In this document: positions 5,091 through 64,000 of the stretch, one piece after another
How positions within the stretch are numbered: position 1 is the stretch's first letter
How the letters are laid out: the number at the start of each line of letters is the position of its first letter
NCBI RefSeq assembly: GCF_037975245.1
Contig: NC_092576.1
Location: forward strand, 23,293,111 to 23,357,110
Length of the DNA stretch: 64,000 nt
Direction of reading: 5' to 3'
Origin: Apostichopus japonicus
Lineage: Eukaryota > Echinodermata > Holothuroidea > Aspidochirotida > Stichopodidae
The notes under the pieces: generated by a model
Databases searched by the model: none
The model's input: the letters and a program-made list of their open reading frames with translations, nothing else
What the model was told of the DNA's origin: nothing
Translations under genes and position numbers: made by a program

Positions 5091-5349
5091 TTTATTTTCG
5101 CCAATCTAGCGTTTTTTCGTCAACTGTTGCTGGTAACACTGGTTATAACAAACACACACGACCGCAGTTGTAGTACTGTGTGTCATGTCTTACTGTCCTT
5201 TTTTTCTTAGTGGCTGCTGTTAGTGTCTGCTCTTAGTGGCTGCTACCTTCAATGAGGCTCGCTCTTATTGTTCGCCAACTTCAGCCAGATCCGTTGTTTT
5301 TCTGTTCCGTACATTTGGCTAGTGTACAATATTTATGAAATCAATCAAG
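5091..5349 (+). promoter_or_regulatory. Presumed CNOT11 promoter / 5' UTR interval
   Basis: This is the only unique DNA between the satellite edge and the CNOT11 start codon. I see no convincing TATA box. A TAG at 5320-5322 closes the CNOT11 frame upstream, so translation must start at ATG 5335 or ATG 5350 if this is the first coding exon. The transcription start cannot be placed from sequence. The function is inferred from position only. Confidence 0.4.
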
Positions 5350-20939: not shown

Positions 20940-21700
20940 TCTATATCTCAACTATAGTTCATTTCCTACAAGCAAAGTAATATTTAGCTATAATACTATG
21001 AATCCCTAGAAGTTTCCTAAAGAGGTTCATATCACATGAACTGAGGATTTAGCTATAATACTATTACTCTTTGGAAGTGTACTGAAGATGTTAACTGTCA
21101 CATGATCTGAGGATTTAGCTTTTATAATATTAATCCTTAGAAGTGTTCTGAAGATGTTAAATGTCACATGAAGTGAGGATTTAGCTATCATACATTTAAT
21201 CCCTAGAAGTGTTGTAAAGATGTTAATGTCACATTATCTGAGGAATTAGCTATAATACTTTTAATCCTTAGAAGTGTTCAAAAGATGTTAATGTCACATT
21301 TTCTGAAGATTTAAATATCATACTTTTAATCCTGAAAGGTGTTCTGAAGATGTTCAATGTCACATGAACTGAGGATTTAGCTATAATACTTTTAATCCCT
21401 AGAAGTGTTCTAAAGATGTTAATGTCACATTTTCTGAGGATTTAGCTATCATACTTTTAATCCTTGGAAGTGTTCTGAAGATATTAAAGTCACATGAACT
21501 GAGGATTTAACTATATATAGTACTATTAATCCTTAGACGTGTTCTGAAGATGTTAAATGTCACACATGAACTGAGTATTTAACTTTCATACTTTTAATCC
21601 CTAGAAGTGTTCTGAAGATTTTAAATTCACATGAACTGAGGAATAAGCTATATTACTAATTCCTAGAAGTGTTCTGAAGATGTTCATGTCACATTTATTA
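20940..21700. repeat. Degenerate tandem repeat, unit about 65-75 bp, about 11 copies
   Basis: Copies share TTAATCC(C/T)TAGAAGTGTTCTGAAGATGTT, then TGTCACATGAACTGAGGATT and TAGCTATAATACT. Spacing varies and substitutions are common, so this array is older than the CNOT11 intron arrays. Confidence 0.9.
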
Positions 21701-27029: not shown

Positions 27030-29847
27030 TTAGTTACACCTGTTGGTATCGCAACAGCTGAAGCAACTACGAAAGCCTGCAATAGCCTCGGTACAATAAT
27101 CCTCACAATACTGAGCGCATCCCAACCCTCGGAAGAGTAAGTCGCCATTGGTTGAGTTGTGAGTAGTCTGGACCTGCAAAGAGAGAGAAGAGAAAGGAAA
27201 ACCAAATAACATATTAATTAAGATGCAAAGCAAACAATAGTCAAAATGATATCTACCAACAATACGATATTTAACAAAATTAGAACCTAAATGAATACAT
27301 ACTGAAATATAAAAAAATAACAAAAATAGGAATGCTTATTCTGTCTAGACTTGTTTATATATCTGCATAATTATGTTAACCATGTAAAACCAACAAATGT
27401 ACGAACTACTCTTTTCAAAATGAACGTTCTGATAACGTCGGCCTCTCCACACCTCTCTCTCTCTCTCTCTCTTTTCTTGATTGCTCAATAGTATCCCGAG
27501 GGCTAGACGTAAAGGTTTAGTGATAATAATTACTTTTTAATTCTGGTCAGGTGTGAGATTGCAAATGGGATGTGTGGCCTGAGGATTTGGTTCAATATTA
27601 TTGCCTCGACGTACAATTTAAAATGGGATACGGTCACACCTCCACACTCTCTCTTTTGCGCACGTCACCGCGACCGGCTTTCTTACCAAGCATACTCCAT
27701 AACATGATTCCGTCTTGTTTTGTTCCACGTAGTCTTTATCACATACGTTAGTAATCGGTTCGACAGCACCATCTGCTATTAAGCATTCGTATTCCTTATT
27801 ACACTCCTTTAAGGTTCTTGAAGGGTTTTTGTAATATTGCCCACGTAGGTTTCTTGGCGGTACGACCAGCAGGTGCACTGTCAATTTCAAGATTAGAAAG
27901 GAAAAAACAAAAAGTGAAAAAGTTGTTATATCAACTGTTATGAATACGACGGTTTAAGAGAGTAATATTTTATGCATTTGAGTGAATGCAGATGTAAAAA
28001 GCATGTACGAGGATTGTGGTGGAGGGGGTGGTTGTATAGCGATGTGGGGATTATCTGGGAGTTTATACCGATTAAGCAGGTGACAGGGTTGAGGATCAGG
28101 GTGTGGTTGTATAAGCAACATTCAAACGGTTATACCACCCATACTTTTATGAAGGATATATACCATTCACACATTATAAAGGCTATTTACCACTCAGAAC
28201 GTTTTGTAGGCTATAAACCACCCAGAACGTTTTGCAGGATATGTAACACCCAGACCCTTACGTAGGCTATAAACCACTCAGATCGTTTTGTAGGCTATAT
28301 ACCATCCAGACCATTGTGTAGGCTATATACCACCCAAACCATTGTCTAGGTTATATACCACCCATACCATTGTGTAGGTTATATACCACCCAGACCATTG
28401 TGTAGGTTATATACCGCCCAAACCATTGTGTAGGCTATATACCACCAATAACGTTATGTAGGCTATTTACCACTCAGATCGTTTTGTAGGATATGTAACA
28501 CCCAGACCCTTACGTAGGCTATATACCACCCAGACCATTGTGTAGGCTATATACCACCCAGACCATTGTGTAGGCTATATACCACTTAGATCGTTTTGTA
28601 GGCTATATACCACCCAGACCATTGTCTAGGTTATATACCACCCAGACCATTGTGTAGGATATACCACCCAGATCATTGTGTAGGCTATATACCACCAGAC
28701 CATTATGTAGGTTATATACCACCCAAACCATTGTGTAGGCTATATACCACCAAGAACGTTATGTAGGCTACATACCATCCAGACCATTGTGTAGGCTATA
28801 TACCACTCAGATCGTATTGTAGGCTATATATCACCCAGACCATTGTGTAGGCTATATTCCATCCAGCCCCGTCAGTAGGGTATATACCACCCAGAATGTT
28901 ATGTAGGCTATCTACCACGCAGATCGTTTTGTAGGCTATATACCACTCAGAACGTTATGTAGGCTATATAACATCAAGAACGTTATGTAGGCTATTTACC
29001 ACTCAGATCGTTTTTATAGGCTATATACCACTCAGACCGTTTTATAGGATATATAGCCTAGCACTTAGACCGTTTTGTATGCTTAATACCACTCAACGTT
29101 TTGTATGCTGTATATACCACCCAGAACGTTATGTAAGCTATATACCACCCATACCGTTTTGTATGCTATATACCACTCAGATCGTTTTGTATGCTATATA
29201 TACCACCCAGAGCGTTTTGTAGGATATATACGAAGTAGATCGTTTTGTAGGCTATATACCACTCAGACCGTTTTGTAGGCTATATACCAAGTAGATCGTT
29301 GTGTAGGCTATATACCACTCAGAACGTTATGTAGGCTATATACCGAATAGATCGTTTTGTAGGCTATATACCACTCAACGTTTTGTAGGCTATGTACGTA
29401 CCACCCAGAACGTTATGTAGACTATATACGTACCACCCAGAACGTTATGTAGGCTATATACCACTCAGATCGTTCTGTAGGCTATATACCACATCTAGGC
29501 CAATTAGGTATAGCTATTAACACCCATGTCGTTATGTACGTAGCATCTTTGCCTTTTAAGAAGTCTATATAGCACCCCGGATGCACATAACACAAGTCCG
29601 TTATGTTTATATCGTTATAAACAAACGGACTTGTGTTACACCAGGACGTTATGGTCAGTATAGAACCCTGAAGTTTTCTAAAATAGAGGCCTTTCCACGT
29701 CATTATACATATACAGTACCATCCACCGCACTCAGGCCGTTATGTGTATATAAGCCTGTTGAACCCATGTCGTTATTGAAACCTAGTCGATGAAAACTCA
29801 CGGTAAACCACAAAGAGGATGATGATGGCACCGATGGCGTTCTTCAT
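27030..29847 (-). CDS. Small secreted cysteine-rich protein, Ly6/uPAR (three-finger) type, 3 exons, 126 aa
   Basis: Exons on the minus strand: 29847-29802, 27877-27687, 27173-27030 (TAA). Donors are GTGAGT and GTAAGA, and both acceptors are CAG. Phases 1 and 0 match, giving 126 residues. Residues 1 to about 24 form a hydrophobic signal peptide (MKNAIGAIIILFVVY...). The mature part has 12 cysteines (41, 47, 61, 74, 78, 98, 102, 106, 116, 119, 120, 125) and ends CFSCCDTNRCN, the CC-x4-CN ending of the Ly6/three-finger fold. There are two N-glycosylation sequons, NKT (69) and NST (85). No hydrophobic tail follows the last Cys, so a GPI anchor is not predicted and the protein is probably secreted. 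The exon plan (signal exon plus two domain exons) also fits the family. The ligand or function cannot be told. Exon 1 rests on signal-peptide character and splice phase. Confidence 0.8.
27451..27474. repeat. (CT)n microsatellite in intron 2 of the Ly6-like gene
   Basis: A short CT dinucleotide run. The remainder of this 513-nt intron shows nothing else. Confidence 0.9.
28120..29510. repeat. 28-bp minisatellite, nearly 50 copies, intron 1 of the Ly6-like gene
   Basis: The unit is GTAGGCTATATACCACCCAG followed by an 8-9-base variable end, either ACCATTGT or (A/T)CGTT(A/T)TGT. Two or three end-types alternate in runs, and units range from about 26 to 33 bp. The array fills most of the 1924-nt intron between the signal-peptide exon and exon 2. 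Its edges (28120-28240 and 29400-29780) are more diverged. Confidence 0.95.
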
Positions 29848-31850: not shown

Positions 31851-31853
31851 CTG

Positions 31854-32445
31854 GGGATATGGCCATGCAAGGACACTAATGTCCCAATCCACATGAGAAA
31901 AGGGGATATGGCCATGCGAGGACACTAATGTCCCAATTCACATGAGAAAAAGGGATATGGCCATGCGAGGACACTAATGTCCCAATCCACATGAGAAAAG
32001 GGGATATGGCCATGCGAGGACACTAATGTACCAAACCACATGAGAAAAGGGAATATGGCCATGCGAGGACACTAACGTCCCAATCCACATGAGAAAAGGG
32101 GATATGGCCATGCGAGGACACTAATGTACCAATCCACATGAGAAAAGGGGATATGGCCATGCGAGGACACTAATGTACCAATCCACATGAGAAAAGGGGA
32201 TATGGCCATGCGAGGACACTAATGTACCATTCCACATGAGAAAAGAGGATATGGCCATGCGAGGACACTAATGTACCAAACCACATGAGAAAAGGGGATA
32301 TGGCCATGCGAGGACACTAATGTACCAATCCACATGAGAAAAGGGGATATGGCCATGCGAGGACACTAATGTACCAATCCACATGAGAAAAGGGGATATG
32401 GCCAAGCAAGGACACTTATGTACCAAATCCACATGAGAAAAGGAA
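31854..32445. repeat. 49-bp minisatellite, about 12 copies
   Basis: The unit comprises GGATATGGCCATGCGAGGAC, ACTAATGTACCAATCC and ACATGAGAAAAGG. Copies differ at only a few sites (GTCCC/GTACC, ATCC/AACC). Open frames on both strands across it are by-products of the repeat. Confidence 0.97.
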
Positions 32446-37379: not shown

Positions 37380-37548
37380 CCCTTATATTGTAGCTTATGT
37401 CTTTTACTTTTTTTGCCTTATTGGTTCTATATATTTAATATTTTGGTTTCTGTTACTATTTGTTTTTAGGTTTTACATTTGTAAAGCTCTGAGTGCAGCT
37501 TTGCTGATTATGTGCTATATAAATATTACTTTATTATTACTTTATTTA
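37380..37548 (+). mobile_element. SINE/LINE-like 3' tail, only in copy A
   Basis: GTAAAGCTCTGAGTGCAGC, then TATGTGCTATATAAATATTA, then ATT/ACTTT repeats resembles the widespread retroposon 3' end (GTAAAGCGC...GCTATATAAAT plus a simple-repeat tail). Copy B has unrelated sequence at this point. The 5' limit is uncertain. Confidence 0.5.
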
Positions 37549-38109
37549 TGTGACATTCTCTTTTCTAGTGCATATTGGAGTTCCCGGAATGGAACTCTTC
37601 CCTCATTAGGCAGTTTACAGCTATTTGTATGGGCGGTCATTTGGCTAAACAATACAACGATGAAACGAGACAAACAGACAAGAAAAAAAGATGAAAAGGA
37701 ACAATAATAATAATAATGTATTGCATAACAGATAGATTGAGAGGATAAAGAGATGAAACGTTCTAAAAATAAAAAGAACAAATAAACAGACCAAAATGAA
37801 GAAAATAAACATGATCATACAGCTAACAATAGGAAAAAGATACACCAAAAGAAAACTGACTAAACAACCAAATTAAACTACACCAAGCCATCGACCAGCG
37901 ACATGTCTGCGCGAACTTAATGAAAGTACGCCCCTGCAATTAAAAGTTGTCCCCAAAAATCAAACCAACCATTGGGACAGAATCAAAATGAACATTGGGA
38001 CAGAATCAAAACGAACAGCGGGCAAATATGAACAGCCGGCAAAAACAACACAAACAGAGGGCGATGTACTAAGCAGGCCTCTTAGATATTTTTAGGAATG
38101 CCCTCAGCG

Positions 38110-38634
38110 TATGGCGGGCCATCAGTCTCAAATCATGGGAGATCGACTCATACCGATTTAAATCGACATATACCAGTTTCCTTCGACTTATACCAGTTTC
38201 CAGCAGCTGAAATTGACTTCTACCGATTTAAATCGACATATACCAGTTTCATTCTACATATCATCGATTTAAATCGACATATACCAGTTTCATTCTACAT
38301 ATCATCGATTTATTTTACTTATCATCGATTTAAATCGATGATATGTAAAATAAATCGATGATATGTCGAAGTAAACTGGTATATGTCGATTTAAATCGAT
38401 GATATGTAGAATGAAACTGGTATATGTCAATTTAAATCGACATATACCAGTTTCATTCTACATATCATCGATTTATTTTACTTATCATCGATTTAAATCG
38501 ATGATATGTAAAATAAATCTATGATATGTCCATTTAAATCGACATCTACCAGTTTAAATCGATGATATGTCGAATTAAATCGGTAGAAGTCAATTTCCGT
38601 GGACTTATACCAGTTTCTAGCCATATCAGCCATA
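38110..38634. mobile_element. 525-bp palindrome-rich insertion, only in copy A, TSD TCAGCG
   Basis: TCAGCG is found at 38104-38109 and 38635-38640. Copy B has a single, uninterrupted TCAGCG at the same point (near 58515-58520). The ends TATGGC and GCCATA are inverted. The interior alternates forward and inverted copies of ATCGATTTAAATCGAT, CGACATATACCAGTTT and CATTCTACATATCATCGATT, so large parts can fold into long hairpins. No protein is encoded. Confidence 0.75.
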
Positions 38635-40369
38635 TCAGCGCAACGCATCGGTGCAGCTCGAACCGGATGTTGCTGAATAGAAATGTTGTGTCTTAGCGTC
38701 ATATCATCAGGACCATATGAACTTGTTCACGGTGACAAGGTCTGTCTATGATAATCAGTATGGCAGTGTCCCTCGTCTGCCTGAGTCTGCCCCGGTGTAT
38801 ACATTCTCTTGTGGGCACAATGAAAACACGACGATTAGCCCACACAGTTCACTGACATTTTGAAGCACGGTGCAGCGTGGTTGGACAGAAGTGCCGTGCA
38901 TACAAGATATCGTAACTACTGTACATTTCGTGATATAACACGGTCAATGAAAACCAAAACAGTGGCATCTGTCCTTTTAGTTCATAGGCGTTCATTCGTT
39001 CCTTGTAATTATGCTAAATCCTCGTTTTAATGGTGGCGCTTAGCCTTTTGCTCTGAGCACTCGTTCGTTTCACGTGTAAGCGTTCGTTTTGATTTCGTGC
39101 GAATGTTCTTACAATACATCTTCGTTCTTATGGTGGCGATTGATCTTTTGTTCTGACAAGGGGATAAATTTGACTTCCCTGTGCTACTTGTTTTATTTTG
39201 TATTTAAATATATATTTTTTCAATTTTCTTTCATTTTTATTTGTTTCATCGTTGTAATGTTCTGCCCAAAAAGCCGCCCATACTGGTTTGAGGATTTGTA
39301 GCTTTCCGAAATTGACTGACTTGGTTGTAATCTATACGAATAAAAAGGTGCAATCCTGCATTCGTATTGGGCTTGCCCTGTCATACGTTGACTGTAGGTA
39401 TCACGCATTCCTCATTAAAGATAATAGGGAAATAATTACCCTTGACAAATGACGTATTATCATCCATGTTTTAATTCATAAACAAACAAACAAATATATC
39501 AACAAATTAAATCGTAATAATAAAATTGAATGGCACTAACCCAAATCGATAAAAATTGAGAAACACCTACATGGCCTCGGGTGTAAATCCCCAAATGCAG
39601 TGTCTGCTTTTTCAGGAAACATTTAGATTTCTTAAAACAAGTGCTATTTTTTATATTATTGGAAATTAGTTTCTAACCACAATGCATTGACGTTACGGTG
39701 ATGACTCCATTCTTAAGATATCAAGCTCACAGGGCATTAGAGTCCACAGATTGTTGTACATAAATGATCAGGTAATTACATTGCATTATTACATTAACAC
39801 ATGAGTGATGTGATAGCTTTACTGACTTTTGAACTGTAACATCTAACACGATTTTACACGATAGCGTTATTGTACTAGGTAAGAAATTTGTCAAATGTTC
39901 CCTTTAATTCTCTTAATTTAACATGTCGGTCTTTGGTGACCACAAACATTTCCACTTCTTACCCATCATGTGATGCATCAGCAAACAGGAGTACAAAGTA
40001 TGATATTGGTGAAAGCTTCCCTTCAAGAGATGTCGTGTTAACAATGTTTCTTTTTTTTTTAAATTAGACCTCTGGTGGCCTCAAAATAACCTCTCACCTC
40101 CACAAAAAAGCAAACCTCTTCTTCTGCGCAATATAATACATCCACATGCAAAGTATGAGACGTCTGATTCTCTTTTTGAGATACTGGTTACAAGGTTCTC
40201 AAATTGTGACCTCAAATGACCTTTGGCATTCACAGCAAGGCTTCTCAAACACACTCATGCCATCCACGCGCAGGCACAAATACAAAATCATGATTACATA
40301 GGTTATGATTATCATCGAAATCAACAAAAACGAAAGATACATTATGTTAATCCTAGTCCCAACATGAAG

Positions 40370-43300
40370 TCAAAATTTCTCTCCATGTAAGCAATATTGA
40401 GGATTGGATTTCCATCCGTTTGACTCTCTCAACACATCAACGACTGCTTGCATTTTCTCGTTATCGTTGTCCTCCTCTGTCCATTCTCTGAACATATATT
40501 TGTAAGCAATGATAGTGATTGCAGAAGCGTCTTGTCGGTGGTTTGCTCTACTTGATCCTTTCGGTGCGATACACTCCTTTTCTAAAGCGCACTGTAACCA
40601 CGGTTGCATTAGCTTCGTTTGAATGGTGGTGCTATTTATAATTAGCTGATTTCCTGCTTGTATATGTGGAGCAGAGTTGTTACAATTATGATATTCTTCT
40701 CTGTCTACGCCAAGTTTGGTAAACATTGCTGGTACAGTCAGTCTATAACGAGCACCTTTTCTTGGATCAAAGTAAGCAATGTACGACATGTAACCATGGT
40801 GACGTTGAATTCCCGGAAGAAGTACTTTAAGCGATTTTTTGAATCGTATGGAAGCATCTCCGTAATAAATTGCGCCAAATTCATTTAAAGAGAGCTGTAG
40901 AAAACAAAAAGAATATCAAAAATGCCAAAAAGGTTTCTAAGGATATTTTTAAGTCCCTTGCACGACCCATTGCGAGGACAGCAATGGCGCCATCATGAGC
41001 AGCGACACACCACAGTCAATTTAATGTACCGAATCTATTAACCGAGACATATAGTCCTAATTGGTCTTTACTGAATTTTCCATCCAGCATCATGGTCATT
41101 TATCCTTGGTTCTTGAAGAGCATAAGTATCCTACTGTTGGTCTACGGGAGAGATTGAAGGTGGTTTAAAGCGTAATGTTAAACTCCTGTGTGAATCGGAG
41201 AGATTCTGCAGCGAGAGCTGGCAGACGGGTTGATGGGTAATTTCATCTCGTTTGGCTCAAATTTAAGCTCAAGGTGATCATGTAAAAACCAATGTGTTGA
41301 GATAAATTGAAAAGGTCGCGGTAACTTGCTACATTGACATTCTTAAGTTCATTCAATTAATCTCATTTTAAGTTATTTTAATTTAATGTGGATACATTTT
41401 TCCAACTAGCAATTTTTTTAAATGGGTAGCAAGAAATTATTGCATAGAACTACTAGACATGACAAGTTATGACAATAGAGTAAGACTTGTTGAATGAACG
41501 AAAACTTTAAAGTCTACCACACACGCTCTTCTTCAGTTTTCATTAACCAACTGGATTTAGTATTATTAACTTCTCTGGTGACTAGTTGATACAACACAGA
41601 AATGTCTATGCAGCAAGTTACCTCGGCTTTTTCGAGTTATAAGAACTGAGCAATAAAGTTACAACAACAAGGCTTTTTGAGTTTTATAATATATATTTTA
41701 TTCCTTCCAAATATATTGACAGAAAAAAAGTCAACATTTCTAAAACAAAACAGTAATGTGCACCTTGTGACACAATAACGTAAAGGTGCTTAAACTTGTT
41801 TATATATTCTTATGAAATATTTACCCCATATTTACACAAGCAGTTGTTGAACTGTATCCCAGTACTAGTTTCACACTGGACACTACAGACATTAAAATGA
41901 TTAGGGCAGCCAGTGGTTGCAATGACCTTAAGAACAAGACACTAATTACAGTGTTATAAATACATTAAAGTTAGTTGCTTCCTCAGAGTTTTTACTCTTA
42001 AAACTAGCTTAGACTGTCATTTAGAAACAAGAGACTTATGAGATTCTTGTAGAAACAATCCCTAAGCATAACGGCTGTAAAGCAGACGTAATAGTAGTGT
42101 TTGACAATAGTTGACATAATTCTTGTGCACTTTGTAGCAATGCTGTTCTGGGCTGACTTTTACCTGTACATTCTGTACAGATATAGGCTATTTAGCTCAA
42201 GAAATTAAAGTTGTTCTTTGATAGATATGGAAGCATGAATAACTAACACAGCATCCAGATGTGGTGATGAACATGTGGGTTGCTCAGTTTCATTACATCT
42301 AAGATAACATGTTGTATAAAACATTTAACTTGTGCCCTTTATTGGTTGTATTCATCATAACTAACTACTATAGACAACAAGCTAGAGTGAGATGAACACT
42401 TATTTAGAACAAACTGGCCATTTGGAAAAATTAACAATATATGTACGCCTACACATATGATGATATATTAACCAGGGCTTCTTCTGCAGTTTTTTTTTAG
42501 TATTTCACTAATGTCCAACTTTGTCGTCTGTGAATGAGTACAACTCTCCCATGGTATCAATGTGGTTGACACAAATCAAACAGTAAATACGCAATTCTAA
42601 GGAAGAGCAAATGCACAGGGAAAAGTAACTTGAAAATTAAACATATTAGTCATTATAACATATTGTGTCTCAGTATAAATTATTACAAATATCTGTGTTG
42701 ATTTTAGTTATTATTTGATGTTCAAACTATTGGCAGAGACTATTACTTAGTGGAATGCCTGTCAATTTTCTTCCTTTCATCTCTTTTTTCTAAAACATAA
42801 AAATACAAACTAACACAAAATAAGTAAACTTATGGCAATATGCTTTTGAATGAGTCTTTCTTTCTATGTCAGGTTGAATAATACTTTTTGTACAAACTCC
42901 AAGGTTTTTTGTTTATCATTATGGTATTCCAAATTGAGGCGGTAATGAAGTGCAAAGTAAAAAGCGATAGCCTGATATAGAAAACTTCTTATGTTGTTAA
43001 TCACGATGTTTGCATCTATAATGATGGGAATTTGTGAAGGGTCTTCTCCAAAGACAAGAATCCTCTGGCTCTCATCCATCTCAATTTGAGTTTCTGACAT
43101 GTCCTGGCAAGAGAAAGTACAATTTGTTAGTAGTTTTGATGCATGTATAGAAACACACATACATGCGCACACACATACATGCACATGGAAACTGCAGCAA
43201 TGGAGGAAGACCCCTCTTTGCAGGGTTACTGTTTATTTTCTTGTTTTTGTAGTATTTAGGAAATCTAGTATTGGTTACCTTTGGGACAAGTAGGTGTGTA

Positions 43301-46300: not shown

Positions 46301-49300
46301 CTGTTGCAGAACTCTGGACCAAATTCACCATATCTCTCCCAAAATCTGAATCTGTATACTGTAGAGAAAACTCATAGGTAATGTTTACTTTATTTTAATT
46401 ATTTGTTTTAAACTTTCAACTGAATTTGGGCGGTCCTGAAGGCAGAGCTTCCTGATGTCCGAGTCAGAAATTATCAACCTTAATTTCAAATCATACTGTC
46501 TCTCGTTTTGGTATCTATATGGAATGCAACACAAAGAAATCAAATAAAAGCGGTACTAAGTCTCACTGTTTTTTTTTTCATTGCCACATAGTGCTTTAAG
46601 ACGACTACATTACTTCCATGATTTGAACAGCATGCCAATGGATAGTAATCATCCAGGTCTCTAGACTCTCTTTGATGGATCAGTTTAAATATACCTGTCT
46701 CCTTTACAATGTATGCCCCAGATACTTTGCAATTCTACTTTCAAAATACTCTACCACAAAAAATATCCTTGTTAACTGTTTTTAGTTGAATCTTTGCAAA
46801 CTATGCTAAGCCATCAGAATCAGAAATAAGAACAAACATGTTTTTGGAACACTTTGTTCTATCCACTAAGACTGGGATTGTCGATAAATCAAGGACATTG
46901 GGGATAACACTCTTCGTAGCTTCTGAGAGTAATGCAATAGTTATACTTGTCAAATTCTCCACAACAACAGGTAAGCAAAAGAAATGTGGGGAAGCCAAAG
47001 GATATGTATCCATCTTTTCATACCTATTGGCTAAAGTAACTAGTATATTCTTGAAGTTATTAACACTTCGAATGATTCTCTTGAAGAAATTGTGTAACGC
47101 TTCGAACCTTACTGTGGAGACTTGAACTAAAGGTCCAAATAACCTTACTTGTTCTGGGTAATTTTCAGCAAAATGGTGCTTTGATTTCAGTCTAGCCTCA
47201 GGAAATGCCATCTTGAGTATCTGTTTGTGTTCATTTATTTTAGCCTGAAGAGAATCAATCATTCCTTCAGTAAAATTAGAGCTGTGAGCCATTTCAAAAA
47301 TATATTTGAGTAATAATATCACAGCAAGTACTGGGTCTTGCTCTGGTACATATAGTCTACCACAAATAGTTGGAGCAACCGGAGCAAGGTCCAGTTTTCA
47401 AACTGGTTACATCCAATACTACCTTTTGCCTTGTAATTTTTCAATTATTTATGGTCTATTTTATAACTGCTAGGCCTAACGCTAGCCAACATTGAGGTCC
47501 CATCACACGAAGTTGTGATAGTCATAATGTTAGATTATAAACTGTTCTAAAGTTAGTTTAACGTAAGGAAAGTTACGAAATTATGTTAACGAGGCAAACC
47601 TACATATAAGATACGGGACCAGAGCCACAAACCAAAGTATCAGTACTTGACGTAGCTTAACTTACTAATCATTTCCCTTTTGATTTAAACTCCATCCCTT
47701 ACTTTTATATTGCCGGCCAGCTCCGAGCTCTCTTCTGATCTGCTCTCACTCAATTCTCAGTACTGCATGTAGAGTATAGTAGGATGGATCAGTGTAGGCT
47801 ACTTATCGCGCAGCTGTTGTTCGTCGCGTGCGTCGTTCTCGAACATTCGGACTTTGCAAATAGCGTAATTACATGTTTCTGATAGTTTCAATAATTTTAT
47901 CGTCAGATGCAACACTTCGTAAACAAAAGTTGTAATAGAAATATATAACAGCTATCAATGTTGACTTATTCCGATTTTGCAAGGTTAACTACTCATTTAA
48001 AGTGGATGAAACTTGGCGGGAAATTTAACTGAACTACACGTTATGTCAGTTGATACAACACACGCAAAGAAGGTTTTGTTAAGCTAACTAGAGCAAAACT
48101 CAAACAGTGTCAGTAATGTTAACGGGTTATGATTTTTGTGTTATGGTAACCTACAACGGTTTTGCTGTGATAAATTTTCCAGCGAGCAAGGTTTTTCAGT
48201 GTAGGTGCGTACATTTTAATGTGCCATGATGTAATCATGTACCGTAATTATTAAACGTCAGTGGATAAAGTTCATCTACCGATACTTTGGCGGCCAATTT
48301 AGTTGAACGATATTTGAAGATCACAGCCGGACGCGACCCCAAGAACAGTGTGTTTAACATTTTCGTTCTAACATGCTTTCTAGTCAAGGGAAAAGTGTAC
48401 ACAAGAAACATTCTTTTGTCCAAAAATAGCTGAAAGAAACATCTTATTCCTATTTGTATATATACAAAACAAAACATTCATTTTGAGTTACTTTGCCCCC
48501 CCCCCCTTCCTTCCCCCTTTTCATATTGCCTTTCTTTTGAAATTGCCATGGTGTCAGACACCTTCAAACTTCAACAATATTATTATAAAATACCAATACG
48601 CCTAAATGCAAATAACGAACAGCGTAGTGAAGTATTCAGTCGATCACGTAACACTAGCAGCTTTGTAGGTGTAGTGTTGTCAGTTTTAGATTTGCTCAAA
48701 TCATTAAGCTTAGCATATGTAGAAACACTGAAATGTTATTATCTAAACAGAGTCATATCACGTTTAATTGTTTTGGAGCATTGTTTGCCATACAAAATAA
48801 CTGTCGAGTCATTATTAATGATGATTTTATGTTAATTTGCTCCTCCGGTAGTTTCCAGTATGTAAGTAACTCAGTAACTGGCTCTAAATCATTCCATGAA
48901 AATGAACCGTAACTCACATTGATGATAACTGGCTTCCACGCATACGACTGCAAATTTTTGACATGTTGTGGGTAATTGTTAAATGGAAAGCGTCGAAGTT
49001 TGACATCACATAGCTTTCTGACCTGTGTAAACCACAAAATACGAGAAACAGTAAGAATACAGAACAATTTGGGAAAGTAATGGACAATGATATCAAAGTT
49101 CACCATGATGGTCTAATGCACGTGAATTAGTTCCATGTTACAACTGCTACGAAAGTACTTCTGGTATTATACAGCTCAAATGTGTGAGTCAATACTGAGC
49201 AAGATGAATTTCACTCATCGCATCCATCCATCTATGGCACCCAGCTCAAAGAGAGGACAGTCCTAGATTCCCTCATCCCTTTCTTGTCCCTAAATGGAAT

Positions 49301-51334
49301 GAAATGTATAGATATACTTAATTGCTATTGCTCATCACGGTGAAAGAATAAGATGTCGATGTCAAGTCGACCTACGAACGTAAAAACTGCTACATAATTC
49401 CTTGCTGTAAATTTCCTGAACGATAAATCACATATGATATTGGTCAGGGTTTAGAATTGTTGCAAGCAAGAACAGTGTATTACCCGGTGTAGTGTAATAT
49501 TATGGACTGAACCGAAAGTGTAGAATGATCAGCTTATGCTTTAATATATACGCAGCTTAATTTGAGAGACTTCTGACAGCATATCGATTTTAATGGTTTG
49601 TTATTATGTTTAAGTATAGCAATTCTTGCTACTTTAACGCAATAAACTCAGTACATATTTTATTAGCTAGCAAGTGGTTTTCTGCATGACGAAAGTCGTC
49701 GTCCCGGATGCAAACGTAAGTCCAAATCTGTTAAAGATGCTTTTCAATTGTCTTGATCAAGATTGACTTGATGTCGATATTGTTAGGTCAATTAACCATG
49801 AATAATTCATAAATACATCGTAACATAGTTATATTTATTGCTTCCATGTATTTCAAGCTATGCCGAGGCGATCACTTTATACACAGTTTTCTAATTTGCC
49901 ACTGAAATATGTATGAAAGGGACATGACTGGAAGGTAGGTTATCCTAAAATCATGTGAAAATCTTATCCTACTAAAATGAATTATTCATATGCCATTATA
50001 ATTAATAATTTACATAAACATACCTACTTACTTATGACTTCCGTACTTTAGACAAATCATAAAAATTACATATTCATACTTTTCGTTTCATAGTGTTTGA
50101 CAAGCCCAGATCGTAGACTATTATTCTCTTTCCAGGCATATATTTTTGAGCTGTTCCGATGTAACCCATCGCTTCTTTGTAGTGATTGTCAGAGAATGCT
50201 GTGATGAGGACTAGTCTGTCGTACATTTCGTCTACTGTAAGAACCGACACATCTAAATCAATGTGTACACCGCCAACGTGTGGTGCTATCGTAGTATTAG
50301 GCTGAATCTCCGAGTCATTTCTTCCACGTGTGGGTATATTTATAGCGATCGATTCGGCATATCTGTTAAAATCTTAATGGATAGAAATACAATGCAAGTA
50401 AGTCAGACAACATTCAAATGCATGCTAATCTTAATAGATCACTGTAGACATTAGTGTTTATGTGATAGACATTGATAAAACTACTGTTATCATTACACTC
50501 CTAAACTTCTTATTTTCTTGGGAATGGTGCTTTAAATACTGATCGATTAATAAAATAGATCAGAACACATAATATTACGTCGGAATGGCGATATTGGAAG
50601 AACGAGGGCAGTGACCCCTGGAGATTGGGGAGCCGTGCAAAATTGTCACCAGTTGTTATAAGAGGTAGATTGGAGTGAATATTGACAGGTAAGAGGGATC
50701 TATTAAATACAAAATTACGTTTGCTGCGATACACCATAAAAGCCTATTGCTATTAGAGTTATACTCTACTAGTAAATGTCAGAAAATAGCATTTAAACAC
50801 CGAGACGTCACTTCATTGCTCACGGTAGACATAATTTGTTTTATTTTATGATGTAAATCGTTCGCAATAACTGCTAGAAGTCAAAATTGCAAGACTAATG
50901 TTTAGTTTCAGAAATTACCTTTTAAACAACCAGATTCAGGCTCAATAATAATACGGCTGGATCACTAACTCTAGAACACAAATTAGTGTGTTAAATTTTC
51001 CAAGAAAAAAAAGTTAACGGCATCTGTGATTTCAGACTACATGTTTAACATGCATTAGCAACGCTAGTATCATAAATATATTCATTATGGAAATATATCT
51101 ATCAAGAAGCAAGTTGTCTCAAAATCTAATACACCCTTATAGTCTGAATTGATAAAGGTTTCATATTATATGCCACAATTGTCATTGAATGTTGATATTA
51201 TTTACTAATACATTGATGATCTTACCATTTGATTGCACAGATGAAGTTGAATATTGCGTAACGTTGAATCCTACAAAGATTAAAAGCATGATACTGGCGA
51301 TGAAACTTCGTTTTAAAACTGCAGTGCTGTCCAT
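40370..51334 (-). CDS. DUF1647 / glycosyltransferase-like type II membrane protein (gene A), 4 exons, 343 aa
   Basis: Exons on the minus strand: 51334-51226, 50372-50080, 49022-48918, 40894-40370 (TGA). All junctions are GT-AG with matching phases (1, 0, 0). Residues 10-25 (SFIASIMLLIFVGFNV) form an N-terminal signal anchor after a basic KR, typical of Golgi type II enzymes. Following motifs: VLITAFSDNHYKEAMGYIG, KRIIVYDLGL, LCDVKLRRFPF, YAWKPVIIN, FGAIYYGDASIRF, WLQCALEKECIAPKGS and NHRQDASAI. From memory this order fits proteins carrying DUF1647, thought to be glycosyltransferase-like; no enzyme activity is known to me. Several N-glycosylation sequons (NVT 24, NDS, NTT, NST) support a luminal location. 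ATG 51334 has A at -3 and G at +4. Intron 3 is 8 kb and contains same-strand transposon-related gene remains. A paralogue lies at 61877-62401. Confidence 0.8.
42864..43103 (-). pseudogene. Last exon of a 'SAMD3-like' transposon-related protein
   Basis: After a TTGCCAG acceptor (AG at 43105-43104) an open exon of 79 codons ends in TGA. Its end, IAFYFALHYRLNLEYHNDKQ then KTLEFVQKVL, matches the C-terminus of multi-copy animal proteins that databases often name 'sterile alpha motif domain-containing protein 3-like' (pattern FGLxYALNLxYPxxxxxTFExxQK). It enters in phase 0, as the exon at 45598-45665 leaves, but I could not find the middle exons. It lies inside intron 3 of gene A, on the same strand. 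Whether it is still expressed is unknown. Confidence 0.55.
43106..45597 (-). other. Unassigned interval within gene A intron 3
   Basis: The missing middle of the SAMD3-like protein would be expected here. Open stretches such as the minus-strand frames at 44636-44322 and 45499-45302 show no family motif I recognise. Nothing is called. Confidence 0.5.
45598..46190 (-). pseudogene. N-terminal half of a 'SAMD3-like' transposon-related protein, frameshifted
   Basis: From acceptor CTCACAG (46191), a frame runs through LPELRLELQLMFE and KSRVLDAISNKM to RQFKAYPTQLECMDVAKQFW, then stops at 45894. This is the usual start of SAMD3-like proteins (KxYPTxxE...VAKxL). A second, shifted frame continues to a GTAAAG donor after 45826. 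It joins in phase to exon 45665-45598, which encodes TPPVKELLERWPVIFL, another family hallmark (xPxVxExxERWPALF), followed by GTAAGT. The frame shift and missing GYxSWxxxxKxKxxN segment between the two suggest a decayed copy. An unusual splice is the alternative. Confidence 0.55.
46801..47397 (-). pseudogene. KHHF/RFEAKHxFFK-type transposon-related protein fragment
   Basis: An open frame of about 198 codons is bounded by a stop at 47398-47400 and the TAG at its end. It contains CGRLYVPEQDPVL, then INEHKQILKMAFPEARLKSK, HHFAENYPEQVRLFGPL, then STVRFEALHNFFKRI and NNFKNILVTLANRYEKM. Multi-copy proteins with (L/K)PKHHFxxHYPxxIxxFGPL and MRFEAKHxFFK, often with N-terminal zinc fingers, are common in fish and invertebrate genomes and are regarded as transposon-related. 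No start codon or zinc-finger exon was found, so it is called a fragment. It lies about 0.6 kb upstream of, and on the same strand as, the SAMD3-like pieces. Confidence 0.6.
47401..48917 (-). other. Rest of gene A intron 3
   Basis: No recognised exon. It contains a C-run at 48497-48509 and otherwise ordinary AT-rich sequence. Confidence 0.5.
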
Positions 51335-57053: not shown

Positions 57054-58668
57054 AAGGTCTTGTTACCATTGTATATTGGTATCATTGTTGTTTTAACAAA
57101 TTTAATAACAAAGTTCTAGCTGATACAGAACAAAATGTTAGTAAGCTAGTAAGAAAGTTAGTAAGTAAGTTAACTTCGAAAACGATAGGTATACGTTCTT
57201 AACACAGCATAAACGAAATGAATCTTTGTGTCCTGCCATTCTTGCAATAATTGCATCAAGATTGTCATTAGAACTTGTTGATATACTAAACATGGACGGC
57301 GGAGCTCATTTTGATGTGGTTGGGGTAGGTAGGGTGAGGAAGGGGGGTGGAGGTAGCGGGAGGGGCGGATATGGCCAAGGTATCTCTTCTTTACTCTACA
57401 AAATAGAGCACCAACGATATCAGGGTATCTGGGGGATTCTATTTAATTGTGGTTAAGGAGGAAAGAATAAACAAATCCTATGTCAAGCTAGGGCGTCAAA
57501 GCAAGCCACCTTCCTGAGTTCTATGTTGGGTTTTGTTCTGTTTACTATTAGGTGTCAGTTTCCATGTACGGGGACTGAAGTTGGGTTTTTCGTTTACAGA
57601 GCTACCGATGTACGAGGAAGCTATGATTGTCATATAAATTTAGGACTGTTCACAGTTTTGGATGGAATTTAGTTATTTTTTCGCTATTGTCTTGGTTTTA
57701 TTCAAGGACAATATTTTAACCGTATAAAAAAATGGGACGACCCAATCCTGATCCCCTGCCCCCCCCCCCCGAGCACTGCCCCACGCCCACCCTTAGCAGT
57801 ATCCCGGCTCCGCCGTTCCAGATAGAACTTGTAATCACCACAAATACATAATTAACGTTTTCACATGAAATTACATCTTGCATAATTGCACAATCTAATT
57901 GTATTAAAATCAGACATCGTAGGTAAGTTTACTATTCTTGTGTAAATGACTTTTGCTTTTGTGGCGTTGACTTTATGTGACGTTCTCTTTTCTAGTGCAT
58001 ATTGGAGTTCCCCGAATGGAACTCTTCCCTCAGTAGGCAGTTTACAGCCATTTGTATGGGCGGTCATTTGGCTAAACAATAGAACGATGAAACAAGACAA
58101 ACAGACAAGAAAAAAGATGAGAAGGAACAATAATAAGAATGTATTGCATAACAGATAGACTGAGAGGATATAGAGATGAAACATTCTAAACATAAAAAGA
58201 ACAAATAAACAGACCAAAATGAAGAAAATAAACATGATCAATAGGAAAAGGTGCACCAAAACAAAACTGACTAAACAACCAAATTAAACTACACCAAGCC
58301 ATCGACCAACGACATGACTGCGCGAACTTAATGAAAGTTCGCCCCCACAATTAAAAGTTTTCCCCATAAATCAAACCAAACGTTGGGACAGAATCAAAAC
58401 GAACATTGGGACAGAATCAAAACGAACAGCGGGCAAATATGAACAGCCGGCAAAATCAACACAAACAGAGGGCGATATACTAAGCAGGCCTCTTAGATAT
58501 TTTTAGGAATGCCCTCAGCGCACCGCATCGGTGCAGCTCGAACCGGATGTTGCTGAATAGAAATGTTGTGTCTTAGCGTCATATCATCAGGACCATATGA
58601 ACTTGTTCACGGTGATAAGGTCTGTCTATGGTAATCAGTATGGCAGTGTGCCTCAGTCTACCCCGGTG

Positions 58669-59118
58669 GCGAATTTCTTTTTCCTGAACCTTTCGGGCAG
58701 TGTACGTTGAGTTTAGCCAATCAGAGCGAGGCTGTGTTGATGACGTACTACAGTAAGATGGCGGCGTGCTTACCAAATGTTGAAGTGGGGAAATCACATT
58801 CGATAAGTCAACATAATTGTTGTACTACAGCAGAAAGTATTAATGTATATAAGCCTTTTCAATTCATGATATAATACTTGGACGTAACTACTTGGACATG
58901 AGAAAAAGTGGCGGAAAAAATCCACACGGGGCCTCGAACTCGCGGTCTTTCGTTTCCCACCTTATGTTTTGAAGCGACGCATTTACCCGACTGACCATCT
59001 TTACTGAGTAGTACGTCATCAACACGAGCGAGGCTGTGTACGTCATCATCACAGCCTCGCTCTGATTGGCTAAACTCCACGTACACTGCCCGAAAGGTTC
59101 AGGAAAAGAAAATTCGCG
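58669..59118. mobile_element. 450-bp element with long inverted repeats, TSD CCCCGGTG
   Basis: CCCCGGTG occurs at 58661-58668 and 59119-59126. Copy A has it once (GCCCCGGTGTATAC near 38790), a clean empty site. About 80 bp at each end are inverted copies of each other, including CCTGAACCTTTCGGGCAGTG and TTTAGCCAATCAGAGCGAGG. An 8-bp TSD fits hAT-like elements, but the terminal bases do not settle the superfamily. The interior carries a tRNA-like segment on the minus strand. No protein is encoded. Confidence 0.85.
58927..59003 (-). repeat. tRNA-like segment inside the inverted-repeat element
   Basis: Read on the minus strand, box A-like TGGTCAGTCGGGTAAATGCG (58997-58978) precedes box B-like GAGTTCGAGGCC. 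The order and spacing are as in tRNA-derived SINEs, but the arms pair imperfectly. Its place between two DNA-transposon-style inverted repeats is unusual. Confidence 0.5.
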
Positions 59119-60741
59119 CCCCGGTGTATACATTCTCTTGTGGGCACAATGAAAACACGACGATTAGCCCACACAGTTCACTGACATTTTGAAGCACGGT
59201 GCAGCGTGGTAGGACAGAAGTGTCGTGCATACAAGATATCGTAACTACTGTACGTGATATAACACGGTCAATGAAAACCAAAACAGTGGCATCTGTCCTT
59301 TTAGTTCATAGGCGTTCATTCGTTTCGCGTGAACGATCGAATTGATCGTGCAATTGTCCTTGTAATTATGCTAAATCCTCGTTTTAATGGTGGCGCTCAA
59401 CCTTTTGCTCTGAGCACTCGTTCGTTTCACGTGTGAGCGTTCGTTTTGATTTCGTGCGAATGTTTTTACAATACATCTTCGTTCTTATGGTGGCGATTGA
59501 TCTTTTGTTCTGACAAGTGGATAAATTTGACTTCCCGGTGCTACTTGTTTTATTTTGTATTTATATATATATTTTTTCAATTTTCTTTCTTTTTTATTTG
59601 TTTCATCGTTGTAATGTTCTGCCCAAAAAGCCGCCCATACATTTACTGGTTTAAGGATTTGTAGCTTTCCGAAATTGACTGACTTGGTTGTAATCTATAC
59701 GGAAAAAAAAGGTGCAATCCTGCATTCGTATTGGGCTTGCCCTGCCATGCGTTGACTGTAGGTATCACGCATTCCTCATTAAAGTTAAGAGGGAAATAAT
59801 TACCCTTGCCAAATGACGTATTATCATCCATGTTTTAATTCATAAACAAACAAACAAATATATCAACAAATTAAATCGTAATAATAAAATTGAACCCACT
59901 AACCCAAATCGATAAAAATTGAGAAACACCTACATGGCCTCGGGTGTAAATCCCCAAATGCAGTGTCTGCTTTTTTTCAGGAAACATAAAGGAAACATTC
60001 AGATTTCTTAAAACTAGTGCTATTTTTTATATTATTGGAAATTAGTTTCTAACCACAATGCATTGACGTTACGGTGATGACTCCATTCTTAAGATATCAA
60101 GCTCACAGGGCATTAGAGTCCACAGATTGTTGTACATAGATGATCAGGTAATTACATTGCATTATTACATTAACACATGAGTGATGTGATAGCTTTACTG
60201 ACTTTTGAACTGTAACATCTAACACGATTTTACACGATAGCGTTATTGTACTAGGTAAGAAATTTGTCAAATGTTACCTTTAATTCTCTTAATTCAACAT
60301 GTCGGTCTCTGGTGACCACAAACATTTCCGCTTCTTACCCATAATGTGATGCATCAGCAAATAGGAGTACAAAGTATGATATTGGTAAAGCTTCCCTTCT
60401 AGAGATATCGTGTTAACAATGTTTCTTTTTTTAATTAGACTTCTGGTGGCCTCAAAATAACCTCTCACCTCCACAAAAAGCAAACGTCTTCTTCTGCACA
60501 ATATGATACATCCTCATGCAAAGTATGAGACGTCTGATGCCCTTCTTTAGATTGCAAGGTTCTCAAATTGTGATCACTGGTGACCTCAAATGACCTTTGG
60601 CCTTCTCAGCAAGGCTTCTGAAACACACTCATGCCATCCACGCGCATACACAAATACAAAATCACGATTACATTGGTTATGAATATCATCGAAATCAACA
60701 AAACTGAATAATACATTATATTCATCATAGTCCCTTACGTA

Positions 60742-61726
60742 TGTAAGGGTGTTTGCCACTGAAAATAAATGTTTTTCTTGATCAGAGAATTCTGGGTTTG
60801 GTGTGAAGACCAAACACAGAGCAAGACACATAAAAAATAGAAAACTCAACTGGATTGGATCAAAAGAAATTATAATTATGAATAACAAACAATATACAGT
60901 ACAGCTGATCTGAGCCCAGTCAAAGAATTAAATAAAACAACTTACAGTAGTGAGGTGCGCACCCAAAAGTAAAGTAAATACACTTAATTTATAAATCTGT
61001 TCTGGTGAGTTGGCGTGCTGGTGACTTCAGGTACAGGTCTTCCACGACATCAGATATTCCACGACATCAGTATAGAGTTGAACAGATAAGTGGTATAATG
61101 AATGTCTGATCCCAACAAAATAGTATCCTTTAATTAATAAGCAATAGAGTCCCAGGCTATCCTCCAGTAAAATAATGTGTATATCCTTTGTGGTAAAATA
61201 ATGTCAGTTATAACAAATGGTGTCCCGGAATATTCTTTATGGTAAAATAATATCCTCTAAGTAAATAATATTCTTTATAGTAAATAATGTCCCAGACTGT
61301 CAGTAGAATATCACTCCTTCCATAAAATCATAAGGACTACAGTAAATTGAACTTGTAACTTAAGGTTTAAAACAAACTATCCAGCATTAAAACTATATTT
61401 CTCCTCTTTTGCAACTGTCATGCTCCAATACTTATGGCCAACTGCCTAACTCCCTATACCCTCACAAAACTCCTTTGTTCCTATAATATATGTACACAGA
61501 CCCCATTTCCTGTGAGGGCTAATTGCCAGGAAGAACAAAGGTAGTTGCTTAGCAACCCAGAAGGAGAGATCTTAATCCCCCTCCTTTTACCACCACAAGC
61601 AACATACAAATACACACACTGTACAAATGATAGCCGCCTGTACAGTGAGCACTGTACATTGTACTTAATAAACAAGTAAAACTATGGAACAAAAGAAAAC
61701 TTTATGTAAGAGCTGACCATCTTACA
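60742..61726. mobile_element. Apparent solo LTR, 985 bp, TSD CGTA
   Basis: It begins TGTAAG and ends CTTACA. CGTA flanks both sides (60738-60741 and 61727-61730). It lies about 150 bp beyond the stop codon of gene B (minus strand). Copy A lacks it, together with about 145 bp of flanking DNA. No internal coding region was seen. An interior series of ATATTC/AAATAAT-rich repeats (61110-61300) is present. Orientation is not determined. The 4-bp duplication is weaker evidence than that of the other LTR. Confidence 0.65.
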
Positions 61727-61876
61727 CGTATTTTCAAATTTAAAAACTGTCACGACCGTTCACCCCGTTCATTCTACCATGAATAGCAATTTTCGTTTTT
61801 TTTTCAGACAAGACTATAACCTCATAAAAAATAATCATTATCACAGCTCGATTTCGGTTTTCTACACAACATGAAG

Positions 61877-62401
61877 TCACAATTTCTTTCCATGTAAGCA
61901 ATATTCAGGATTCCATTCAAATCCGTTTGACTCTCTCATCACATCAACGACTGCTTGCATTTTCTGGGTATCATTGTCCTCCTCTGTCCATTCTCCGAAC
62001 AGGTTTTTATAAACAAGGAGAGTGATTGCAGAAGCGTCTTGTCGGTGGTTTGCTCTACTTGATCCTTTCGGTGTGATACACTCCTTGTCTAAAGCGCACT
62101 GTAACCACGGTTGCATTAGCTTGGTTTGAATGGTGGTGCTATTTATAATTAGCTGTGTTCCTGGTTGTATATGTGGAGCAGAGTTGTTACAATTATGATA
62201 CTCTTCTCTGTCTATGCCAAGTTTGGTAAACATCGCTGGTACAGTCCGTTTATAATGATGAGATCTTGTTGGATCAAAGTGTAGAATATTCGTCATGTAA
62301 CCATGGTGACGTTGAATTCCCGGAAGAAGTACTTTCAGCGATTTTTTGAATCGTATGGAAGCATCTCCGTAATAAATTGCGCCAAATTCATTTAAAGAGA
62401 G
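61877..62401 (-). CDS. DUF1647 / glycosyltransferase-like protein (gene B), last exon, 174 codons
   Basis: It is the same length as the last exon of gene A, with the same acceptor (CTACAG, AG at 62403-62402) and stop position. The first 35 residues (LSLNEFGAIYYGDASIRF...) are identical to gene A. The middle (REEYHNCNNSAPHIQ, WLQCALDKECITPKGS, NHRQDASAI) is almost identical. A block just after the HHGY motif is strongly changed. The open frame without stops or indels suggests a functional paralogue. Upstream exons must lie beyond the right end of the window. A solo LTR sits in its 3' flank. Confidence 0.8.
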   Translation of the reverse strand, partial: LSLNEFGAIYYGDASIRFKKSLKVLLPGIQRHHGYMTNILHFDPTRSHHYKRTVPAMFTKLGIDREEYHNCNNSAPHIQPGTQLIINSTTIQTKLMQPWLQCALDKECITPKGSSRANHRQDASAITLLVYKNLFGEWTEEDNDTQKMQAVVDVMRESNGFEWNPEYCLHGKKL

Positions 62402-64000
62402 CTGTAGAAAACAAACAGAATATCAAAATTAGTCTCTTGCACGACCTATTGCGAGGACAGCAACAGCGCCATCAAGGGCAGCGACACACCACAGACAGTG
62501 TAATGTACCCAATCAATTAACCGAGACATATAGTCCTAATTGGTCTTTACTGAATGTTTCCATCCAGCATCATGATCTTTTATCCTTAGTTCTTGAAGAG
62601 CATAAGTATCCTACTGTTGGTCTACGGGAGAGATTGAAGGTGGTTTAAAGCGTTAGGCAAAATTAATGTGAATCAGAGAGATTCTGCAGCAAGAGCTGGC
62701 AGACGGGTTGATGGGTAATGTCATCTCGTTTGGCTCAAATTTAAGCTCAAAGTGATCATGTAAAACCCAATGTGTTGAGATAACTTGAAAAAGTCGAGGT
62801 AACTTGCTACATTGACATTCTTAAGTTCATTCAATCTCATTTCAAGTTAATTTAATTTGGATACATTTTTCCAACTAGTAACTTTTTTGAATGGGTAACT
62901 ACTAGACATGACAAGTTATGACAACAGAGTAAGATTGTTGAATGAACTAAATCTGTAAAGTCTACCACACACACTCTTCTTCAGGTTTCATTAAACAAAT
63001 GGTTTAGTATGATTAACAGTATATTCTGGCTACTAGTTGATACAACACATAAATGTCTATACAGCAAGTTACCTCGGCTTTTTAAAGTTAGGTGAACTGA
63101 GCAATGAAGTCACATGAGTTTTATAATATATATTTTATTCCTTCCAAATATATTGACAGAAAAAACTTAACATTCCTAAAACAAAACAGTAATGTGCACC
63201 TTGTGACACAATAACGTAAAGGTGCTTAAACTTGTTTATATTTTCTTATGAAATATTTACCCCATATTTTCACAAGCAGTTGTGTCAATTGTATAACTGT
63301 ATACCAGTACTAGTTTCACACTGGACACTACAGACATTAAAATGATTAAGACAGCCAGTGCTTGCAATAACCTTAAGAACAAGACACTTATCTTACAAAA
63401 CCATCATTTTTTTCTCTTATTACAGTGTTCTAAATTCATTAAAGTTAGTGGATTCCTCAGAGTTTCTACTCTTAAAACTATACTAGACTGTCATTTAGAA
63501 ACAAAAGACTTATGAGACTCTTGCAGAAACAAGCTCTAAGCATAACTGCTGTAAAGCAGACGTAACAGTAGTGTTTGACAATAGTTGACATATTACTTGT
63601 GCACTTTGTAACAATGCTGTTCTGGGCTGACTTTTACATGTATAGTCTACAGATGTGGGCTATTTAGCTCAAGAATTTTGAAGTTGTTCTTTGATAGATA
63701 TGGAAGCATGAATAACTAACACATCATCCAGATGTGGTGATGAACATGTGGTTTGCTCATTTTCATTACATCTAAGATAACATGTTGTATACAACATTTA
63801 ACTTGTGCCCTTTATTGATTGTGTTCATCATAACTAAATATTATAGACAACAAGCTACAGTGAGATAAACACTTATTTAGAACTAACTGACCATTTGGCA
63901 AAAATAACAATATATGTACGCCTATACATATGATAATATATTAACCAGATCTTCTTCTGCAGGGTTTTTAGTCTTTCACCAATGTCCAACTTTGTCGTCT
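62402..64000 (-). other. Start of the large last intron of gene B
   Basis: Non-coding DNA colinear with 40895-42540 of copy A, with small indels (for example about 28 extra bases near 63390). No exon was recognised. Whether it also contains the transposon-related remains cannot be seen, because the alignment stops about 320 bp short of the first of them. Confidence 0.6.

Follow-up and report, generated by a model that had tools for sequence, protein, structure and literature searches.

In the vertebrate tandem UGT and GCNT2 clusters, as far as the accessible portion of the source describes them, diversifying selection has acted on acceptor-pocket residues and hypervariable regions are present, and that same portion treats selection on the acceptor regions of duplicated glycosyltransferases as an established theme (PMC1885805). 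For enzymes of the GT-A fold, the available text of PMC7185993 describes HV regions that encode family-specific motifs for acceptor specificity, with HV2, the connection between β6 and β7 of the GT-A core, doing so in several GT-A families. For the DUF1647 family, the accessible text of PMC3534327 gives 14 genes in C. elegans, of 340–410 amino acids, and the corresponding part of PMC7614267 places C. elegans DUF1647 genes in clusters of putative glycosylation genes; a search of the open-access literature found no activity for DUF1647.

The window analysed here (the whole stretch of DNA, 64,000 nucleotides long) contains a tandem duplication, seen by self-blastn, in which ~37.5–42.5 kb is repeated in the same orientation at 58.0–64.0 kb. 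In each copy the minus strand carries the last exon of a DUF1647 gene (gene A in copy 1, gene B in copy 2), and each last exon contains a variable block. The features and the evidence for each are as follows.

37545..42529, no strand assigned: duplicated segment, copy 1, well-aligned part (self-comparison and alignment)
57972..64000, no strand assigned: duplicated segment, copy 2, reaching the window end (self-comparison and alignment)
51226..51334, minus strand: gene A exon 1, with Met start and hydrophobic segment, ending in phase 1 at a GTAAG donor (phase fits exon 2)
50080..50372, minus strand: gene A exon 2, start of the DUF1647 domain (acceptor site picked by phase with exon 1)
48918..49022, minus strand: gene A exon 3, end of the DUF1647 domain and WKP motif (splice phase, Pfam)
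40370..40894, minus strand: gene A exon 4 with stop codon (open frame, alignment)
40739..40786, minus strand: variable block of gene A, exon 4 residues 37–52, protein residues 206–221, SYIAYFDPRKGARYRL (pairwise alignment)
61877..62401, minus strand: gene B exon 4 with stop codon (alignment with gene A)
62246..62293, minus strand: variable block of gene B, exon 4 residues 37–52, TNILHFDPTRSHHYKR (pairwise alignment)

Gene A appears to be complete within the window, its four exons having matching phases and GT/AG ends and yielding an open protein of 343 amino acids. The acceptor of exon 2 was chosen for its phase: a second AG, 10 bases deeper in the exon, would not be in phase with exon 1. The hydrophobic segment of exon 1, judged by eye, is a probable type II signal anchor. 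The DxD-like Asp is residue 13 of exon 4, which also encodes the variable block, the HRxD-S motif and the C-terminal tail. Gene B is represented in the window by exon 4, a second set of exons 1–3 being absent from it, and these exons should lie beyond the window end. The two last exons are open and align in register, with no indel between A and B, and the frame is intact in both copies although the aligned segment that holds exon 4 and the intron has 18 gap events. Copy 2 carries ~1.1 kb extra at 60735–61866 that is missing from copy 1. This insertion and the many other indels between the copies, together with four outer segments of 75–81% identity, fit old paralogy, and there is no N in the window; an assembly artefact, in which alleles or collapsed repeats were misplaced in tandem, is thus a most improbable source of the pattern, and even if the copies were alleles the block would still be a real variant.

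Several other features lie in the window. The long last intron of gene A contains, at 46801–47397 on the minus strand, an open frame of 198 codons that by eye has a transposon-derived look and that has no Pfam match above the cut-off (best MIF4G, E=0.046). At 38224–38617, a palindrome-rich repeat of CGATTTAAATCG-like units, found in copy 1 only, separates two segments that are contiguous in copy 2 at about 58515. Large tandem-repeat arrays occupy 1–5085, 13275–15374, 15515–16895, 20982–21694, 28131–29492 and 31853–32443, with periods of 226, about 127, 77, 65, 28 and 49 bases. Searches for Rfam families and tRNAs gave no match.

Comparison of the two last exons showed that 31 of 174 residues differ. 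The residues that follow the splice site are identical, as the initial annotation had it, over a run of 36 rather than 35, and from the methionine onwards (M36 to L52) 11 of 17 residues differ, exactly as it had counted; the interval it gave, 40650–40790, contains the block but is wider than the block proper at 40739–40786. Its description of the later regions as mostly identical was too strong, since 20 of the 31 differences fall in the 122 residues after the block, with smaller clusters at exon residues 128–136 and 161–174, the latter in the C-terminal tail. The framework is unchanged between A and B both within and around the block (I39, FDP, Y50 and T53), as are the motifs D13 and HRxD-S, and the framework residues of the block, FDP included, are conserved at the DNA level too. 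Of the two smaller clusters, that at 128–136 forms the helix after the HRxD-S motif, and the C-terminal tail, which holds the other, is a possible counterpart of HV3 in GT-A enzymes; approximate, uncorrected tests gave an N-site excess over noncoding sequence with P = 0.03 for codons 128–145 and P = 0.006 for codons 157–177 (numbering offset from exon residues).

At the nucleotide level, A and B differ at 16 of the 48 positions of the block, which is the most diverged ungapped stretch across the 4.2 kb of aligned duplication (noncoding maximum 8/48), and 16 differences per 48 columns were reached in none of 5000 permutations of all differences over 4192 columns. A second cluster of 16 in 48 near 40160 in our first gapped alignment proved to be a misplaced indel and was gone on realignment, and a 15-of-48 window at 34979 lies within a 75%-identical, gapped, AT-rich flank. 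Noncoding columns differ between the copies at 210 of 3667 (5.7%), with 118/1555 (7.6%) in the upstream intron and 56/1563 (3.6%) in the 3' flank; these figures come from the best-aligned three of eight matching segments, the five omitted being the four of 75–81% identity and one short segment of 96%.

The differences in the block are concentrated at amino-acid-altering sites, in line with the initial annotation. NG86 counts ~14 N changes for the 35.4 N sites of the block and ~2 S changes for its 12.6 S sites, and the differences at codon positions 1/2/3 are distributed as 6/8/2, against 13/5/12 in the other 158 exon codons. Change at the N sites (14/~35) is above the noncoding rate (Fisher p = 4e-9); at the silent sites (2/~13) it is indistinguishable from that rate (p = 0.17). 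For noncoding rates of 5.7–7.6% the N-site excess has P between 3e-9 and 1e-7; with six of the eight segments included (>=150 columns), the noncoding rate becomes 354/4727 (7.5%) and P = 9e-8, and P rises to 0.04 only if the rate is set at 25%, that of the worst far flank. In a simulation with no constraint at the intron rate, 11 amino-acid changes in 16 codons arose with P = 0.00035, and when the 31 changed residues were permuted, 11 fell in 17 with P = 0.0005.

These rates bear on the idea that the block is a loop under relaxed constraint, tolerating nearly any residue and filled by neutral substitution. The region is indeed variable in length and sequence across the family, but the N-site divergence of the block, 0.40, is 5 to 7 times that of noncoding sequence, and relaxation, which cannot surpass the neutral rate, is disfavoured because of this; FDP and the other framework residues are moreover preserved, at the DNA level included, and we regard this origin as improbable. 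Even less credit can be given to a single complex mutation, such as a template switch or multi-nucleotide event, acting without selection. Four of the 11 changed codons carry 2–3 differences, as such an event might leave, but the differences are in frame with conserved codons in between, and the longest inverted matches, at 9 nt, are no longer than the 8–10 nt found for most of 200 random segments.

Gene conversion, in which the block would have been copied into A or B from an older third paralogue, located elsewhere in the array or genome, so that its divergence reflects the age of the donor, is harder to set aside. The edges of the block are abrupt, its 16 differences in 48 nt adjoining an exon stretch with 1 difference in 108 nt; copy 2 reaches the window end, so that the array may extend past 64000; and silent sites are so few that, at the pooled rate, two or fewer of 16 third positions would change with P = 0.06. 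An old neutral patch nonetheless predicts change at third positions, yet 2 of the 16 have changed (P = 0.009 given the rate for positions 1 and 2), and self-blastn, tblastn and a fuzzy search found no third copy in the 64-kb window. Because the synonymous test is weak (p = 0.03 to 0.10), exchange with a third paralogue stays in consideration as the main rival, possible at odds well short of even. Conversion is unnecessary as a cause of the 36 identical residues upstream, since silent and intron sites there give P = 0.17.

The initial annotation had proposed diversifying selection, for which the N-site excess over noncoding sequence speaks; the contrast of N over S within the block reaches only p = 0.10. 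In this single A/B pair, the block codons (40–55 in the offset numbering) have a pairwise dN of 0.56 and dS of 0.18 (the same Fisher p), codon positions 1 and 2 differ from position 3 with p = 0.03, and the N:S ratio of the block differs from that of the remaining exon with p = 0.24, the contrast inside the block being weak because silent sites are so few. Across the distant family, the positions at which A and B disagree are no more variable than those at which they agree (mean entropy 2.38 vs 2.38, p = 0.66; 24 vs 127 positions, with 23 of 174 excluded for having too few rows), which neither supports nor excludes selection and gives the claim no help.

Membership in the DUF1647 family was established by a Pfam match of gene A and by profile matches. 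Spliced gene A matches PF07801 (DUF1647) at residues 82–168 with E=1.4e-18 and 67.5 bits (gathering cut-off 25.7), and exon 2 alone scores 30.7 bits. The match ends one residue before the exon 3/4 junction and leaves the variable block outside the Pfam model, and exon 4 alone has no Pfam family above the cut-off; Pfam DUF1647 is probably the N-terminal half of the glycosyltransferase encoded by genes A and B.

When window sequences or profile A3 were first searched against viral, phage, plasmid and genome collections, no relative was found, and matches from an earlier pattern search were rejected as relatives, since they looked unrelated and remained without a tblastn hit. A degenerate pattern recovered 8 stretches from prokaryote genomes. 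Among 18 loci, the sole relative at E<=0.001 was L015, from a Euryarchaeota MAG record (E=3e-21), which is 27–30% identical to exon 4 of A and B and whose genome has a PF07801 match over the cut-off (1/1). This nearest prokaryotic homologue, at 3370–5295 on the minus strand of its record, is one half of a 641-amino-acid protein, the C-terminal half of which looks by eye like a GT2-type transferase. PF07801 matched at least 9 of 296 genomes of the same phylum at E<=0.001, at least 5 of them over the cut-off, compared with 0 of 14 controls; the counts are lower bounds because the genome of L015 itself went unmatched in that draw. With profile A3, matches were found in 4 of the 92 genomes searched in one family, in 6 of 395 from the same phylum (three in each case being genomes that supplied A3 proteins) and in 4 of 398 from a different phylum; single genomes gave no match (0 of 4). 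The phylum draws made from the L015 record (Euryarchaeota) and from a Bacteroidetes record have some genomes in common.

Among viral contigs, 456 relatives of the wider group were found, and 82 with L015 as query; 80 from each scan were kept. Environmental virus contigs (loci L040–L199) often carry DUF1647-like GT-A genes, and the best match in the viral library was a 601-amino-acid protein of Emiliania huxleyi virus 86. Alignment A5 includes the 32 of 80 viral loci from the wider-group scan that passed filters, and alignment A6 (58 rows) took 27 of 40 and 28 of 30 filtered viral loci, omitting the partial L143 and L173 and 13 more by hand against redundancy; motif and k-mer filters had removed further loci before both alignments. 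At E<=0.01, the 58 members of A6 gave matches to DUF1647 (7), Glyco_transf_8 (4), Glyco_transf_34 (1) and Mannosyl_trans3 (1). Five proteins tested against PHROGs, three of them viral, had no match at E<=0.01, NCBIfam gave no match above the cut-off, and a search of the PDB by sequence gave no meaningful match.

AlphaFold prediction of exon 4 with two sequences had a pLDDT of 35 and was unusable, and the block was therefore placed only through the distant homologue L015, whose domain model, built from A6 (58 sequences), has a pLDDT of 82.8 and a pTM of 0.84. Foldseek matched this model to 369 PDB chains at E<=0.001. Among the best 50 of the 369 are the GT-A enzymes UGGT (catalytic domain), WbbM, LgtC, GlyE, XXYLT1 and LARGE1, as well as GTA/GTB and BoGT6a, and these best 50 have 9–16% identity and TM scores by query length of 0.47–0.61. 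The predicted structure of L015 thus has the GT-A fold, and on its basis genes A and B probably share it.

In L015 the block aligns to residues 122–134, covering strand 122–130, which follows the DxD-like Asp100, and the first part of the link leading to strand 151–161; L015 has gaps opposite exon residues 34–38 and 46, that is, opposite six residues in or just before the block. By strand counting in the model, the block would correspond to β6 and the start of the β6–β7 connection (HV2). The connection in L015, 131–150, is 20 residues long, compared with the more than 28 residues given for HV2 in the available text of PMC7185993, and the number of residues from D13 to T53 ranges from 34 to 49 across the 58 rows of A6. 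The accessible parts of papers on blood-group transferases (PMC4692239) and Gb3 synthase (PMC5149393) were of no help in placing the block. The suggestion of a substrate-facing loop in the initial annotation is supported by this homology and fold, through which the block aligns to the acceptor region of GT-A enzymes, and we infer that in A and B it contacts the acceptor.

In A6, D13, H119, R120, D122 and S124 are present in all 58 rows. The DxD-like motif, beginning with Asp 13, lacks its second Asp: A and B have D-A-S there, and L015 has D-A-G. Two other widely shared residues are missing from A and B: the aromatic residue before T53 (W/Y/F in 55/58 rows), which lies inside the block and is replaced by Leu in A and Arg in B, and the Gln of HRxDQS (56/58 rows), both genes reading HRQDAS. 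Because of these two losses the activity of A and B is not certain, and the enzymes may have altered chemistry or be inactive; the intact frame and the strongly conserved DxD strand argue against decay.

The explanation we favour, with a probability of roughly 0.55, is diversifying selection on an acceptor-facing segment of duplicated, probably membrane-anchored glycosyltransferases of the GT-A fold. A tandem duplication would have yielded genes A and B, and selection after the duplication would then have altered the amino acids of the block, which would be the strand after the DxD-like metal/nucleotide-sugar motif together with the beginning of the loop behind it, a site of acceptor contact in such enzymes, while the framework and the motifs D13 and HRxD-S were retained. 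With the block altered and the framework kept, A and B therefore most likely modify different acceptors. That selection rather than exchange of a patch was the cause is what we infer from the rate, frame, position and fold, to which the selection account is the simplest fit, and selection and conversion from a third paralogue could both be true together. An unlikely extension is that A and B belong to a longer tandem array whose HV2 acceptor segments have been diversified or exchanged again and again, as small cassettes set in an unchanging catalytic frame, so that an animal would have a repertoire of glycosyltransferases with acceptor choice differing between individuals or species.

Through its prokaryotic and phage relatives, DUF1647, known from glycosylation gene clusters of nematodes, is linked here to the GT-A fold, and the analysis pinpoints a segment of 16 residues at which duplicate enzymes probably switch acceptor, opening the way to a direct swap experiment. 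Gene A resembles the C. elegans DUF1647 proteins, as given in the accessible text on them, in matching the same family, in its length of 343 amino acids and in being tandemly duplicated. With LgtC (GT8), LARGE1, XXYLT1, UGGT and GTA/GTB (GT6), the likeness lies in the fold of L015, the DxD-like Asp and the HV2 position, whereas the HRxDQS and WKP motifs belong to the DUF1647-like group. With the vertebrate UGT and GCNT2 clusters, as described in the available part of PMC1885805, the common ground is that glycosyltransferases duplicated in tandem show amino-acid-altering change in regions that bind the acceptor or, at this locus, probably do; in contrast to the UGTs, which have two Rossmann-fold domains and vary in their first exons, the change here is a patch of 16 codons in the last exon.
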